The position numbers and the translations under genes were made by a program. Positions 132 through 6,317 of a DNA stretch of 64,000 bases are shown piece after piece; within the stretch, counting starts at the first letter, position 1; each line of letters begins with the position of its first letter. The stretch comes from an uncultured Dehalococcoidia bacterium. Its GTDB lineage: Bacteria > Chloroflexota > Dehalococcoidia > Lucifugimonadales > UBA3495. The notes below the pieces were generated by a model, which searched no databases, had not been told where the DNA came from, and saw only the letters and a list, made by a program, of their open reading frames with translations. Location: positions 2,480,001 through 2,544,000 of the forward strand of contig OY282456.1 in the NCBI GenBank assembly GCA_958296225.1, in the 5' to 3' direction.

Positions 132-761
132 TCAGCGGCGTTGCGGCGGCGTTTCGGGCCGCTCCCCCGGATACAGCAGCACGTTGTCCGGGGAGATGAC
201 GTCGCTGAAGTAGGCTTCAAAGGGCGTCCCCTCGAACTTGGTAATAGCCAGCGTCTGTTGTTCGTGGTCGGCCATAAAGTCCCAGATGTAGAATCCTTCC
301 CCGTCAAACTGGCCGTCCTGGTGGTAGAAAGCCTCGAAACTGTTGCGGTAGGAATAGCGTTGGCCGGCGATGATGACGCCGTTGTTGATGGAATGTTCCT
401 CGTCCAGAGCGACCAGGTCGGCTTCGGTCAGGCCGATGGTTTCCAGCCCCACCGGGCGGCGGTCGGTGGCGGCGGTGACAAAGAGGCCCTCCCGGTCAAC
501 GGACCACTCCAGCCAAACCCGCCGGCCGGCGTCGGCGGCCACCACCTCGCGCCATTCAATGCTGTTGCCGACGCCGGCGTAGCGGTGGACGTGTTCCACG
601 ACCAGATAGGCGTCATCGTAGTCCAGGTGCAGGCCCTGGACAACCACCACGTCGCCGGCGCGGGCGGCGCGGATGGTGGTGTCGGCCAGCCGGCCGGTTT
701 GACCGGAGGGTTGGTAGCGGCGGCGGCCCAGCAGCCTATCTAACAGTGTTCGTTTAGCCAT
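132..761 (-). CDS. DUF4178 domain protein
   Basis: This 209-aa soluble protein has a basic N-terminus (MAKRTLLDRLLGRRR) and then a beta-rich DUF4178-like domain over most of its length, with the usual pattern of a compact N-terminal barrel, a WREV/WLEW segment and an aromatic C-terminal part (SFEAFYHQDGQ). No catalytic motif is evident and its molecular role is unknown. It is transcribed away from the pspA operon, from a start about 160 bp from the 59-aa ORF. DUF4178, DUF350 and PspA are repeatedly found together in bacteria, which supports a role in membrane stress. The ATG start is preceded by a consensus -10 hexamer 57 bases upstream. Confidence 0.75.
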   Translation of the reverse strand: MAKRTLLDRLLGRRRYQPSGQTGRLADTTIRAARAGDVVVVQGLHLDYDDAYLVVEHVHRYAGVGNSIEWREVVAADAGRRVWLEWSVDREGLFVTAATDRRPVGLETIGLTEADLVALDEEHSINNGVIIAGQRYSYRNSFEAFYHQDGQFDGEGFYIWDFMADHEQQTLAITKFEGTPFEAYFSDVISPDNVLLYPGERPETPPQRR

Positions 762-817
762 GGTCGGCGTTGCCTTGCCAGTGTGCGCGGTATCGGGTTG
801 GCATCCCTTTGGCGCCC

Positions 818-823
818 ATTATA
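818..823 (-). promoter_or_regulatory. -10 element (TATAAT) for the DUF4178-DUF350 transcript
   Basis: On the minus strand a perfect TATAAT lies 57 bases before the DUF4178 start. No good -35 was seen at the expected distance. Confidence 0.45.
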
Positions 824-866
824 GCCCGGACTGGCCGCCGCCGCACGCCCGCGCCCGTGAGTATGG

Positions 867-872
867 TATTAT
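867..872 (+). promoter_or_regulatory. Extended -10 (TGGTATTAT) upstream of the pspA operon
   Basis: TATTAT is preceded by TGG, giving an extended -10 about 45 bases before the 59-aa ORF. A similar TGGTATTGT occurs at 5332-5340 in front of the K+ channel gene. No sigma-54 type GG...GC pair was found, so the enterobacterial PspF mode of control is not indicated. Confidence 0.4.
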
Positions 873-917
873 CTGTTCCGGGAAATTGTCGCGGGAGGCG
901 ACCCGTCGGGGGGGACT

Positions 918-1097
918 ATGAAACCGGTCAGCATCTTGATTGGGCTGATTCTACTGCTATTGGGCATCCTGCTGGTGGTCGGCCTGCTGGATTTCCTGTT
1001 GATTCTCTTGCTCCGTCTCCTGGGCGCCATCTGCATCGTGGCAGCGGTGGCGCTGCTGTTCTGGGCATTTATGGGAAACCGGCGCAGCAGCTATTGA
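918..1097 (+). CDS. Small two-helix membrane protein upstream of pspA
   Basis: This is an ATG-started 59-aa ORF ending TGA, too short for routine ORF lists. After MKPVS it is almost entirely hydrophobic: residues about 6-31 and 35-52 form two helices separated by a single Arg (LLLRLLGAI), and the tail is GNRRSSY. It lies 73 bases upstream of pspA, in the same direction and downstream of a plausible promoter. By position it could be a small membrane partner or anchor for PspA, as PspB and PspC are elsewhere, but there is no sequence similarity to those that I can see. No strong ribosome site is visible. Confidence 0.6.
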   Translation: MKPVSILIGLILLLLGILLVVGLLDFLLILLLRLLGAICIVAAVALLFWAFMGNRRSSY

Positions 1098-1170
1098 GCC
1101 CTTTCCCGGCTGCCCGCCGTGGGGCCGGTGGCCCGTCAGCCATACCAACCGTCAGGAGGTAAGTGTAACT

Positions 1171-1914
1171 ATGGGAATGTTTTCCCGGATGTCCACCATC
1201 GTCAAGTCGAAAATGAACCGTATGCTGGATTCCGCCGAGGACCCGCGGGAGACGCTGGACTACTCCTATGAGAAGCAGCTGGAGATGTTGCAGAACGTCA
1301 AGCGCGGGGTGGTGGAGATGGTCACTGCCAAGCGGCGCATCCAGCAGCAGGCCAATAAGGTGAAGGACAATATTTCCCGGCTGGACCGCCAGGCCCGCCA
1401 GGCGGTGGACGCCGGCCGGGACGACCTGGCCCGGCTGGCCCTGCAACGCAAGCAAAGCGCCCTGATGGAGCTGGAAGGGCTGGACGAGCAGATTGCGGGC
1501 ATGGAGCAGGAGCAGGAAAAGCTGACCCAGGCCGAGCAGCGCCTGCAAGCCAAGGTGGATGCCTTCCGCAACAAGAAGGAAATCATCAAGGCGCAGTATT
1601 CGGCGGCCCAGGCCCAGGTGCGCATTGGCTCCGCGCTGGGCGGCATCTCCGAGGAGATGGGCGACGTTTCGCTGGCTATGCAGCGCGCCGAGAACAAGAC
1701 CGACCAGATGCGCGCCAAAGCCGGGGCCATCGACGAGCTGGTAGCCACCGGGGTACTCGACGACATCACCGGCCCCAAGGACGACATCGACCGGGAGCTG
1801 GAGCAGATTACGACCTCCAGCAGCGTGGAGGCTGAGCTGGCCGCGCTGAAGGGCAACGGTTCCCCGGCTCCCGCCGCCGCCGAAGCCGCCGCCAACCCGG
1901 AGCGCGGAGTATGA
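1171..1914 (+). CDS. pspA: PspA/IM30 family envelope-stress protein
   Basis: This 247-aa protein has typical PspA length and layout: an amphipathic N-terminal helix (MFSRMSTIVKSKMNRMLD), the family motif DPRETLDYSYEKQLEMLQNVKRG at about residues 24-46 with the conserved DP pair, then long coiled coils to about residue 220. PspA/Vipp1 proteins assemble on stressed membranes as ESCRT-III-like polymers. A strong AGGAGGT lies just before the ATG. The stop overlaps the next start (ATGA). The Ala/Pro-rich tail (SPAPAAAEAAANPERGV) follows a conserved VEAELAALK segment that recurs in the next protein. Confidence 0.93.
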   Translation: MGMFSRMSTIVKSKMNRMLDSAEDPRETLDYSYEKQLEMLQNVKRGVVEMVTAKRRIQQQANKVKDNISRLDRQARQAVDAGRDDLARLALQRKQSALMELEGLDEQIAGMEQEQEKLTQAEQRLQAKVDAFRNKKEIIKAQYSAAQAQVRIGSALGGISEEMGDVSLAMQRAENKTDQMRAKAGAIDELVATGVLDDITGPKDDIDRELEQITTSSSVEAELAALKGNGSPAPAAAEAAANPERGV

Positions 1915-2489
1915 TTGCGGGGACACCCGGCGCGGGGCGGTTCACCCCGCCGGGTCCGGGCATTGACCAGCTCAGCGATATTGACCGCCGGATGGCGGAA
2001 GCGGTGGCTGAGGCGGACTGGCTCCGGTTTCAGTCCCTGTTGGACGAGCTGCTTAGTCTGCCGGATGACCTGGGCGAGCCGGCGCCGGCCGCCGCACTGG
2101 CGGAGTGGGCCCGGATTTTGCCGGAGCGGTCGCCGGAGCTATTGCAAAGCGTCAAGCGCGGGCTGGTGGAGCTGGTCACCGCCCGGCGGCAAATGCAGCA
2201 GCGGGCGGGCCGGGTGCGGGAGGATATGGCCCGGCTGGACGGCCAGGCCCGCCAGTCGGCGGCCATCGGCCGCGACGACCTGGCCCGGCTGGCCCGCCAG
2301 CAGCAGCAAAATGCCCGGCTGGAACTGGAAGGGCTGGACGCGCAGATTGCCGGCATTGAGCGTCAGCAGGCAAGGTTGACTCAGGCCGTGCGGCGCGCCG
2401 ATGCCGGCCCCGGGAATGATGACACCGTGGAGGCCGAGCTGGCCGCGCTGAAGGCCGCCGCCGCCACGCCACCGGAGCGCAGAGTATGA
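1911..2489 (+). CDS. Chimeric PspAA-PspA protein from a tandem duplication
   Basis: Residues 1-72 of this 192-aa protein align with the PspAA protein encoded just downstream (FTPPGPGIDQLSDIDRRM against FNLPGSVIDGLNDIDNRM). Residues 76-160 align with residues 39-122 of the upstream PspA (LLQSVKRGLVELVTARRQ against MLQNVKRGVVEMVTAKRR). The last 20 residues repeat PspA's VEAELAALK tail. It therefore lacks PspA's N-terminal membrane helix and the coil between residues 123 and 218. The start overlaps the pspA stop and the end overlaps the next start, both as ATGA. A coil-capping or decoy partner of PspA polymers is possible, but this is an inference. Confidence 0.85.
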   Translation: MIAGTPGAGRFTPPGPGIDQLSDIDRRMAEAVAEADWLRFQSLLDELLSLPDDLGEPAPAAALAEWARILPERSPELLQSVKRGLVELVTARRQMQQRAGRVREDMARLDGQARQSAAIGRDDLARLARQQQQNARLELEGLDAQIAGIERQQARLTQAVRRADAGPGNDDTVEAELAALKAAAATPPERRV

Positions 2490-2764
2490 TTGTGCGGATA
2501 CTTGGCGAAGGGCAGTTCAATCTGCCGGGGTCGGTCATTGACGGCCTGAACGATATTGACAACCGGATGGTGGAGGCGGTGGCCGCCGAGGACGGCCCCC
2601 AGTTCCAATCACTGCTGGATGAAATGTTCCGCCTGGTTCGGGAGCAGGGCGAGCCGGTGCCGGTGGACGAACTGGTCGAGTCGGACCTGATTTTGCCGGA
2701 ACTGGATTTGACGCTGGACGAAGCGGAGCATATTTTTATCGGCGACGGCCTGTTGCCCGGCTGA
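2486..2764 (+). CDS. PspAA (PspA-associated domain) protein
   Basis: This 92-aa acidic protein matches the PspAA family: N-terminal MIVRILGEGQF, central DNRMVEAV, and C-terminal SDLILPELDLTLDEAEHIFIGDGLLPG. PspAA genes sit next to pspA in archaea, actinobacteria and Chloroflexota, and the product is thought to act with PspA. The start overlaps the previous stop. Its 3' end overlaps the convergent DUF3326 gene by 29 bases, so the two transcripts share antisense tails. Confidence 0.85.
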   Translation: MIVRILGEGQFNLPGSVIDGLNDIDNRMVEAVAAEDGPQFQSLLDEMFRLVREQGEPVPVDELVESDLILPELDLTLDEAEHIFIGDGLLPG

Positions 2765-4079
2765 CCGTCGCGGCCGGCAGGGGGCGCCGCACTGCCGCCG
2801 GGTCCAGCCCGGCCCGCAGGGCGGCGATTACGCCGGCCGCCTCCCAGTAGTTTTCTACCAGATGGAGCTGGCCGGCGGCCCAGGGCAGTTCGGTCAGGTC
2901 GTTGCCCATCAGGTTCCGGTTTTCCCGCACCGCGATGGTGGGGATGCCCTGCTCCAGGGCGGCCAGGGTGGGCAGGCCCACGCAGCCGTCGGGCAGCACC
3001 AGGCAGGATACGTCGGCGGCGTTCAGGACGCTGTGATGCCGGCGGGCCTCGGGGTCGGCGACCAGCCGGGGGCTGCGCTGCAGGCCCTTGAGGATGCACT
3101 GCACCATCGCCAGGGACACGGCCTCGGCTGCCATCCGGGGGTCAACCACGCCGGGGTCGGCGTTGGCGATTTCCCGGCTCTCCAGCATCGGGGCGTGGGC
3201 CGACGGGACATCGTACAGGGCGGATATGGTGTGCGTCAGCATCGCCTCTACTCCGCCCCAGGGGTTGACCATATCGCCCATCCGGTCGAAGTATTCGAAG
3301 TGGTATCCGGCCGGCGTGTCAATCTGGGAGGTGATGGCCACGGCGTCATACTGGCCCCGGCGCCGTTCCAGCTCGTCCAGCAGTACATCCAAGCCCCACA
3401 CCCGGCCGGCGGCCCGCCCCGACCGGGCGTAGCGGACATCCATCCGCAGGCCCTGGTCCAGCCGGAGAATCTGCGGCGGCAGCAGGCCGTAGGACACGCG
3501 GGCCGCGTTGACGGAGTTGATGGCCGCATTGACGAAAAGTTCGTCGTCGTGAGGGCCGAGCACCACCAGCAGGCGGTTGTTGCGGACTTGCTGTAGGCCC
3601 ACCTGCCCTTGCAGCATCCGGGCGATGGCGCTGCCTTCCACGTACAGCGCGTTGGCCGGCAGTTCAATCAGGTCTGAGGCGTTCAGCACGTTGGGGTGGG
3701 TAATCAGGGTATCGCAGACCGCGGCCAGCAGGGCGGCCACCGGCATCGCGTCTCCGGCGTGGCCGCCGAGCTCCGCGCCGATGCCGGTAGGCACCAGCAG
3801 CACGGCGTTGAAGTTTTGGGTATTCTCAATGGGCCGGCGTTCCAGGCGAAAGATGGACGCCGGGCCGGGGTCTGCGGCCAATCCCCGCAGCAGGCCGACT
3901 TCGCAATGGCAGCCGGCGGGCGACCGGCCCGTTATCGCCAGGCGGATGGGGATTTCCCCCGGCGGGAGCTGCTGCGCTACGGCCCGGCCCAGCTGCCGGA
4001 GGGGGTGGGCTGCCGTGCCGACGTGGGGAACGGTCAGCTCGGTTTCGTACAGTTCGGCGGTGGTCATAGCCCGGCTCAT
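2736..4079 (-). CDS. DUF3326 family protein
   Basis: This protein of about 447 aa has the hallmark DUF3326 core LLVPTGIGAELGGHAGDAMP followed by DTLITHPNVLNASDLIELP and YVEGSAI. The family's function is unknown. The ATG at 4079 is preferred over the upstream alternative at 4088 because it overlaps the stop of the decarboxylase gene (ATGA), implying translational coupling. The pairing suggests a polyamine- or amino-acid-linked role; that is inference only. The 3' end overlaps the PspAA gene tail to tail. Confidence 0.8.
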   Translation of the reverse strand: MSRAMTTAELYETELTVPHVGTAAHPLRQLGRAVAQQLPPGEIPIRLAITGRSPAGCHCEVGLLRGLAADPGPASIFRLERRPIENTQNFNAVLLVPTGIGAELGGHAGDAMPVAALLAAVCDTLITHPNVLNASDLIELPANALYVEGSAIARMLQGQVGLQQVRNNRLLVVLGPHDDELFVNAAINSVNAARVSYGLLPPQILRLDQGLRMDVRYARSGRAAGRVWGLDVLLDELERRRGQYDAVAITSQIDTPAGYHFEYFDRMGDMVNPWGGVEAMLTHTISALYDVPSAHAPMLESREIANADPGVVDPRMAAEAVSLAMVQCILKGLQRSPRLVADPEARRHHSVLNAADVSCLVLPDGCVGLPTLAALEQGIPTIAVRENRNLMGNDLTELPWAAGQLHLVENYWEAAGVIAALRAGLDPAAVRRPLPAATVSRATGRRR

Positions 4080-5269
4080 GCTCCCCACCTGGCCGCGAAG
4101 TCGGCGTAGGTGTATCGTCGCTTCAGCTGCAAGTCGCCCTGCGGGGTGAGGGCGTAAATCGTCGGCAGATTGACGCCGTTGAAGGTGTGGGCCTTGACCA
4201 GGGTGTAGGCCCCGGCGTTGGGAAAGGCCACCCGTTGCCCCACGGCCAGCGGGCGGGCGAAGCGGTACTCGCCGAACACGTCCCCGGCCAGGCAGGTGCA
4301 GCCGGCCAGCGTGGCGGCCCAGGGGGCGTCGTCCCGGTGGCCCAGCACGTCCGGCTCGTACTGGTACTCGAACACTTCCGGCAGGTGGTTGACGGTGGTA
4401 TCAAGGATTGCGGTGCGGCGTCCGTTGCGTTCTTGCAGTTCCAGCACCGTGGCAACCAGGCAGCCGGCGGAACGGATTAGCGCGGCGCCCGGCTCGATGA
4501 TGGCCTCCAGGCCGCAGCGCTGCCGCAAAAACTGCAACGTGCGGTACAGGGGGGCGAGGTTGACGGGGGCGCCGGTTTCGTCCTCAAAGAGGTAGCCGCC
4601 GCCGAGGTTAATCCAGCGCAGGCTGCCATCTTGCAGGCGGCGGCCCAGCCGGTGATGCAGCCGGCGCACGGTGGCCTCCAGCGGGGTGAAATCGGTGGCG
4701 TCGCAGTTGGTGTGGAGGAGCAGGCCGGCGATGGGCTCCGGGCCGTCCAGGATTTGGGCCACCGCGGCCAGGGGCTCGCCCAAGCGGGAATCGGGCCGGC
4801 AGGGGTCATAACGGGGGTCGTCAATTAGGGACAGCTCGGGGTTGACCCGCAGGCCGCCGGCGTCGGGCGCGCGCAGGGCGTCCCGGTGGGCGCGCCACTG
4901 GCTGGCGGAGTTGAAAGCGACGTAATCGCACAGCCGGCCCAGTTCCGCCGCGTCGCCCGGCGGTATGCCGGGGGTGGTCAGGTGCACCGCGCCGCGGTCG
5001 CCCAAGACGGAGCGGGCCAGCCGGGCCTCAAACAGGGAGCTGACGGCGAACCCGTCCAGCTGCGGGGCCAGCAGCGCCAGCGCCGGCCGGAAAGAGAAGG
5101 ACTTGACGGCAAACAGTATCCGGCAGCCGCTATGCTCCCGGATGCCGGACACCGTGCCCAGCAGCCGGGCGATGGCGGCCTCGTCGTAGATGAATGCGGG
5201 TGTCTCCAACGGCACGTCGCCGGCGACGACCGCCGCCAGTGGTTCGGCCCATTGTGTCGCAGCGTTCAT
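4076..5269 (-). CDS. nspC: Carboxynorspermidine/carboxyspermidine decarboxylase-like enzyme
   Basis: This 397-aa fold-type III PLP decarboxylase resembles NspC, which releases CO2 from carboxy(nor)spermidine to make (nor)spermidine. Visible landmarks are the PLP lysine in ILFAVKSFSF (K56), SSLFEARLA, LLLHTNCD, the glycine loop LGGGYLF, EPGAALIR and the catalytic region CLAGDVFGEYRF near the C-terminus. Length is normal for the family. The upstream enzyme (a carboxyspermidine dehydrogenase) is not in the window. It is divergent from the K+ channel gene; polyamines are known channel blockers, so a link is conceivable but unproven. Confidence 0.82.
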   Translation of the reverse strand: MNAATQWAEPLAAVVAGDVPLETPAFIYDEAAIARLLGTVSGIREHSGCRILFAVKSFSFRPALALLAPQLDGFAVSSLFEARLARSVLGDRGAVHLTTPGIPPGDAAELGRLCDYVAFNSASQWRAHRDALRAPDAGGLRVNPELSLIDDPRYDPCRPDSRLGEPLAAVAQILDGPEPIAGLLLHTNCDATDFTPLEATVRRLHHRLGRRLQDGSLRWINLGGGYLFEDETGAPVNLAPLYRTLQFLRQRCGLEAIIEPGAALIRSAGCLVATVLELQERNGRRTAILDTTVNHLPEVFEYQYEPDVLGHRDDAPWAATLAGCTCLAGDVFGEYRFARPLAVGQRVAFPNAGAYTLVKAHTFNGVNLPTIYALTPQGDLQLKRRYTYADFAARWGA

Positions 5270-5405
5270 TGGTCGTCAACTCGGCCGGTGGTGCAGTGTG
5301 GCCAAGGCGGCGGGTTTGCCGCCCTGGGCGGTGGTATTGTACAGTGGGCCGCGCCGCCCACACTAGCGCAGCAGCCGGGCCGGGCCGTGGGAGGACAACA
5401 GCGGA

Positions 5406-6317
5406 ATGGAGACGATTACGAATCCTGATACGCGCGCGGCCCTATCCGCCGGATTTCGCCGCCGGGTGTACGCCGTGCTGGAGTCGCGCGGCGGCGGGCG
5501 GACGGACGGCGAGGCGGCGGCGCGGGCGCCCTACGTGGTGGAGACGCTGCTGGTGCTGGTCATCCTGCTCAACACGGTGTCGCTGATTCTCTGGACGGTG
5601 CCGCGCCTGGAGGCTTCTTATTCCTTATGGTTCCACCTGGTGGAGCATTGCACGGTGGCGGTGTTTGCGGTGGAGTACGGGCTGCGGCTCTGGGCGGCCC
5701 CGGAGGCGGACGCCGGCCGGAACCCCTGGCGGCAGCGTTGGCGTCACGTGGTGGGGGCGACCGCGCTGATTGACCTGGCGGCCCTGCTGCCGTCGGTGGC
5801 GGCGGTGGCCGTCCTGCTGCTTACCGGCGACAGTCTCACGCTCTCATTTCTGCTGGCCTTGCGCATTCTGACCCGGTCGGCCAAGCTGGCCCGCTACTTT
5901 CCCGGCGGCCGGCGGCTGGGGCTGGCCCTGCGGCTGAGAGGCGGGCAGCTGGCGACTGCGGTGGCGGCCCTGCTGGTGGTGCTGGTCATCGCCGCCGCGC
6001 TGATGTACTTTGCGGAATCGGCGGCCCAGCCGGAGGTGTTCAACAGCATTCCGGCGGCGATGTGGTGGAGCGTGGTGACGCTGACCACGGTAGGCTACGG
6101 CGATACGGTGCCGCAGACCGGGGCCGGCCGGCTGCTGGCGGCGGTAATTGCAGTGCTGGGCATCGGCCTGTTCGCGCTGCCGGCGGGCATCCTGAGCGCG
6201 GCGATGATGGAGGCCAACGCGGCCGGCGCGGGCCAGGGTGAAGCGACGGCCGGCGTCTGCCCGCACTGCGGCGAGCCGCTGGGTTCGGGCGCGCCGCTGG
6301 CCGGCACGGATGGGTGA
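5406..6317 (+). CDS. Six-helix K+ channel with C-terminal zinc-ribbon motif
   Basis: This 303-aa protein has six hydrophobic segments and a pore with filter TTVGYGDT (about 227-234), as in voltage-gated-like K+ channels. The S4-like helix (LALRILTRSAKLARYF) carries few regularly spaced arginines, so voltage sensing may be weak. After S6 there is a short tail with CPHCGEPLG (285-293), half of a zinc ribbon; two channel subunits could supply a complete site. The final residues PLAGTDG and the stop are encoded within the first unit of the tandem repeat that follows, so the repeat has shaped the C-terminus. Confidence 0.85.
   Translation: METITNPDTRAALSAGFRRRVYAVLESRGGGRTDGEAAARAPYVVETLLVLVILLNTVSLILWTVPRLEASYSLWFHLVEHCTVAVFAVEYGLRLWAAPEADAGRNPWRQRWRHVVGATALIDLAALLPSVAAVAVLLLTGDSLTLSFLLALRILTRSAKLARYFPGGRRLGLALRLRGGQLATAVAALLVVLVIAAALMYFAESAAQPEVFNSIPAAMWWSVVTLTTVGYGDTVPQTGAGRLLAAVIAVLGIGLFALPAGILSAAMMEANAAGAGQGEATAGVCPHCGEPLGSGAPLAGTDG

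Follow-up and report, generated by a model that had tools for sequence, protein, structure and literature searches.

A PspAA-PspA chimera between intact pspA and pspAA genes of a Dehalococcoidia bacterium, apparently derived by tandem duplication and internal deletion

Between an intact pspA gene and an intact pspAA gene, a 64,000-nucleotide stretch of an uncultured Dehalococcoidia genome (contig OY282456.1, hereafter the window) carries a reading frame that joins parts of both, which raises the questions of how this middle gene arose and whether its product still has a role. The order in 1171-2764 is pspA, chimera, pspAA, with a 4-nt ATGA overlap at each junction (Table 1). The pspA gene is 85-88% identical to its orthologues in the genus, and pspAA has a GGAG ribosome-binding site of its own.

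Table 1. Positions in the window of the three psp genes, the parts of the chimera and the small upstream gene.
Feature	Position (nt)	Strand	Remarks
59-aa hydrophobic (TM) protein, upstream of pspA	918-1097	+	ORF; no Pfam family
pspA, 247 aa	1171-1914	+	Intact PspA/IM30, ESCRT-III superfamily; PF04012 98.5 bits over 1-216 of 220
PspAA-PspA chimera, 192 aa, in-frame	1911-2489	+	ATGA overlap with both neighbours
Chimera, PspAA-derived half (residues 1-72 of 92), decayed	1911-2125	+	72% DNA identity to 2486-2700
Chimera, PspA alpha1-alpha2 hairpin part (PspA residues ~37-125)	2132-2396	+	79% DNA identity to 1278-1542
Chimera, PspA tail motif VEAELAALK (helix alpha5 region)	2421-2456	+	86% DNA identity to 1819-1854
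pspAA, 92 aa, intact	2486-2764	+	PF22743 110.9 bits, 1-92 of 92

The chimera runs from PspAA residues 1-72 through PspA residues ~37-125 to the PspA tail and a duplicate of the junction between pspA and pspAA. The sequence-only reading had described the middle gene in just this way, as the front of PspAA followed by the interior and the tail of PspA, and the reading frames, the DNA repeats and the segment map all confirm it. Specifically, 1911-2123/2125 corresponds to pspAA 2486-2698/2700, 2124/2135-2395 to pspA 1270/1281-1541, 2421-2456 to pspA 1819-1854 and 2454-2489 to pspA 1879-1914, with a joint of ~25 nt (2396-2420) between the mapped pspA segments. The repeat pairs are 1278-1542 with 2132-2396 (79% identity), 1879-2125 with 2454-2700 (72%) and 1821-1871 with 2423-2473 (78%), and since these matches span hundreds of bases, with 72-79% identity over 213-270 nt, they lie far above chance. 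The two start contexts (1893-1917 and 2468-2492) share almost the same sequence, GGAGCGC[G/A]GAGTATGATTG, again as the earlier reading had it.

At the protein level, the PspAA profile (PF22743) scores 28.8 bits over residues 7-77, marginally above its cut-off of 27, and the PspA_IM30 profile (PF04012) matches positions 39-126 with 20.2 bits, below its curated cut-off of 33.9. Compared with PspAA, the chimera lacks the last 20 residues. With the PspA/IM30/Vipp1 proteins, the bacterial ESCRT-III family, it shares the hairpin and the alpha5 motif, the latter identical to PspA in 9/9 residues, but it is without the start of alpha1, the end of alpha3 and the alpha4 (elbow) region, and the hairpin is shortened. 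The N-terminal amphipathic helix alpha0 is also gone: PspA residues 1 to ~36 are missing in both the Pfam match and the segment map, so the claim that the middle gene has lost its membrane helix stands.

A chimera flanked by its own parents, and seen in one genome only, could in principle be an assembly or sequencing artefact at the repeat. We reject this explanation, and consider it extremely improbable: the chimeric and parental copies differ by 21-29% in DNA, which is compatible neither with an assembly artefact nor with a collapsed repeat, the frame is open, and the window sits within a single 3.97-Mb contig. The sequence-only reading had named two things that would together count against it, the absence of the chimera from all relatives and an assembly error at the repeat; the former is what we find among the relatives searched, whereas the latter is excluded by the divergence of the copies.

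Relatives were searched with one genome per species, the named ones being SAR202/Dehalococcoidia MAGs. The sequence-only reading had suggested a look for the same chimera in related genomes, and none was found in the other 13 members of the genus, in the rest of the family set (50 genomes in all), in samples of the class (393 genomes) and the phylum (400 genomes), or in direct scans of genome contigs and viral contigs. Two class-level matches (G485 and G487) appear to span the chimera join, and they contain a stop codon. All fused reading frames resolved in the phylum sample have PspA first and PspAA second. The PspAA-PspA fusion is real, so far unique, and unusual in its order.

Within the genus, pspA and pspAA are both present in 5/14 genomes and both absent from the other nine. 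The adjacent DUF3326 gene follows the same pattern, as if the three came and went as one block. In the window, 132-6317 holds a syntenic set of DUF4178, pspA, pspAA, DUF3326, an ornithine/DAP/arginine decarboxylase-like gene and an ion channel. The neighbourhood DUF4178, small TM protein, pspA, pspAA, DUF3326, decarboxylase and ion channel is common to the other four pspA-bearing members of the genus, in one of which (L059) the ion channel is matched over a short stretch only. This set recalls the PSP neighbourhoods with polyamine genes, DUF4178 and a K+ channel in the portion of Ravi et al. (2024; PMC11237479) that describes them, here with PspAA. The 59-aa membrane protein has homologues, ~51-58% identical, upstream of pspA in the same four genomes, and is a candidate membrane partner of PspA.

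The junctions differ between the window genome and its sister species. In the four sister species pspA and pspAA are separated by a gap of 79-83 nt, while in the window genome the pspA/chimera and chimera/pspAA junctions carry the same derived ATGA overlap. The pspA C-terminus of the window genome (1855-1914) reads into the next start, and pspA of the sister species stops 79-83 nt before pspAA. A tree that places the chimera beside the genes of its own genome is better by 3.0-3.9 lnL than alternatives in which an older, shared duplication puts it outside the genus or with the other species; with bootstrap values of 64-75 for the placement, this rejection is not decisive alone. The shared ATGA state of the two junctions agrees with the tree, however, and together they point to a duplication that is probably specific to the lineage of the window genome, followed by deletions.

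Repeats, segment map, junctions and tree therefore give good support to the origin that had been proposed from the sequence alone, tandem duplication with internal deletion. In the scheme that we infer, the pspA-pspAA unit would have been duplicated in tandem, most likely after the split from the sequenced sister species, and deletions would then have joined codons 1-72 of the first pspAA copy to the second copy of pspA at its hairpin part. The deletions would have taken out alpha0 and early alpha1, most of alpha3 and all of alpha4, leaving the last pspA codons in place. While the anatomy is seen directly in the DNA, the order of the duplication and deletion events is reconstructed from it, with no intermediate observed.

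Predicted structures treat the two halves of the chimera very differently. The model of intact PspAA (mean pLDDT 89.5) has the order beta1-beta2-alpha1-alpha2-beta3-beta4-alpha3 and fits the published description. In the model of the chimera no strands are predicted, the third PspAA helix is absent and only the two middle helices are left of the PspAA elements, with residues 1-12 at pLDDT <50, so that the PspAA half seems to have lost its ability to fold as PspAA does. The PspA half, by contrast, is modelled as a plausible PspA-like helical hairpin, with helices at 75-118 and 122-164 (pLDDT 93-98 over their middle) and a further helix at 170-185 of moderate confidence. The best Foldseek matches of the chimera include Vipp1, E. 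coli PspA (4whe) and Snf7, but these matches are weak (E-values of at least 0.085), and with a helical hairpin as the query they add little support.

To what extent selection still acts on the chimera can be estimated with a codon model, for which we used our own GY94-type script to obtain branch dN/dS values. The ratio is 0.062 for the background and parent genes and 0.554 for the chimera branch, or 0.857 when both copies are constrained to the same time. Forcing a single ratio on all branches costs 20.6 lnL, whereas fixing the chimera at 1 costs only 1.5 lnL, i.e., its ratio is not separable from 1. Identity to the parent is also near-flat over codon positions 1/2/3, at 0.81/0.77/0.77 and 0.85/0.62/0.68; the corresponding values for true orthologues in the genus are 0.85-0.93/0.92-0.95/0.61-0.67.

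The PspAA half is neutral in every measure and has decayed. Its amino acid identity to the parent is 38/71, compared with 36-39 expected from simulations without selection, its radical changes match the neutral expectation of the simulations, and half of the conserved sites are changed (11/22 kept, against 26/49 at other sites). It is this equal retention of conserved and variable sites, with the loss of the beta-sheet from the predicted model, that identifies the half as decayed. For the PspA half the amino acid identity, at 54 where 52-56 would be expected under neutrality, is likewise not raised, but the changes are conservative, with a mean BLOSUM62 score of 0.47 compared with -0.40 in the neutral simulation (P ~0.001), and conserved sites are kept more often than others (30/39 compared with 21/45, for which simulation gives P 0.03, or 0.01 if the alpha5 motif is included, in a range of about 0.01 to 0.05). 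Because several related tests and simple mutation models underlie these P values, the signal is one of weak residual constraint rather than proof of function. Conservative change, a confidently predicted hairpin and a retained VEAELAALK motif thus suggest that weak constraint on the PspA half may remain.

The reading frame itself must also be explained. Over 465 aligned nt, in which its branch carries ~98 changes, the chimera shows neither a stop nor a gap. Under neutrality a stop would fail to arise with a probability of 0.20-0.55 in the hairpin part and 0.29-0.64 in the PspAA part, values that are not small, the DNA being GC-rich, so that selection for the frame is only moderately supported. 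The chance of no indel is 5e-5 to 0.04, assuming that indels are 1/10 to 1/30 as frequent as substitutions, and under these ratios the absence of indels adds to the evidence from the open frame. A plain pseudogene, its frame open by chance and with no role either in translation or as a protein, is compatible with the dN/dS, with the neutral behaviour of the PspAA half and with the sizeable no-stop probability. It is nevertheless a doubtful explanation, because indels are lacking, both ATGA overlaps are intact and the hairpin half has changed in a non-random, conservative way.

A reading to which we give about an even chance of being correct is that the chimera is mostly a non-essential, co-translated relic of duplication and deletion, whose frame is possibly kept open by its place between two coupled genes. 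With a start signal that would be inherited from pspAA and an end that falls on the start codon of pspAA itself, the chimera is presumably translated together with both neighbours. Any stop or shift of frame in it would then interfere with translation into pspAA, which would hold the frame open, while since the fusion the residues themselves would have evolved with almost no constraint; at most, the product may pack weakly with PspA through its hairpin and alpha5. Against this relic stand the conservative change and the better retention of conserved sites in the hairpin half, and also the fact that stop-free neutral evolution is not very unlikely in such DNA. Moreover, because pspAA keeps its own GGAG site, coupling to the chimera is not required.

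The alternative is that the chimera serves as a PspA-like subunit lacking alpha0 and alpha4, a cap, size limiter or dominant negative that binds PspA polymers through the hairpin tip and alpha5 and cannot extend them. The chimera does retain both of these elements, which form Interface 1 of ESCRT-III (PMC8281802), the alpha5 motif without a single change, and it is still in the operon and in frame; the conservative changes, conserved-site retention and confident hairpin of its PspA half fit as well. A PspA-binding role is therefore possible. The functional subunit as a whole is still unlikely, considering that PspA-half identity is no higher than neutral, that dN/dS cannot be told from 1, that the gene occurs in one species only and that the PspAA half is degenerate. 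Of the sequence-only interpretation, then, duplication, deletion and loss of the helix hold up, but a cap or dominant-negative role is no more than possible, given near-neutral dN/dS and a decayed PspAA half. Its bolder form, a newly born bacterial ESCRT-III regulator in which a hairpin and alpha5 duplicate, with both elements of the interface that forms the polymer but no membrane helix, would be co-translated with PspA and would limit or cap its polymers, is likewise unlikely. The loss of alpha0 alone does not settle whether the chimera binds membranes, since IM30 alpha1-3 does so without alpha0 (PMC12636044).

Fusions of the same two domains are known. PspA-PspAA fusions, with PspA N-terminal, are reported for Actinobacteria and Chloroflexi in the relevant part of Ravi et al. 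(2024; PMC11237479), and like the chimera they combine both domains in one polypeptide, in the same phylum. Compared with the fusions described there, the chimera is reversed, with PspAA first, both of its domains are truncated, and it is a recent duplicate that adjoins intact pspA and pspAA genes. The same paper describes tandem or fused PspA/Vipp1 paralogues in cyanobacteria, as dyads or triads, which resemble the chimera in being local psp gene duplications, but its account of these paralogues mentions no truncated fusion with PspAA first. Another Chloroflexota genome (locus L102, G126:C229) has two adjacent stand-alone pspAA genes beside one pspA, probably an independent tandem duplication, and at two further loci (L100 and L113) a second, separate PspA-like reading frame lies downstream of a PspA-PspAA fusion gene.

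The chimera is a clear snapshot of the birth of a domain fusion in a stress operon, with duplication, deletion and an unequal loss of constraint in its two halves. Should its PspA-derived hairpin prove to bind PspA, the chimera would offer a natural, minimal modulator of ESCRT-III; otherwise, it is a warning that fused reading frames in operons may be relics held open by their position.
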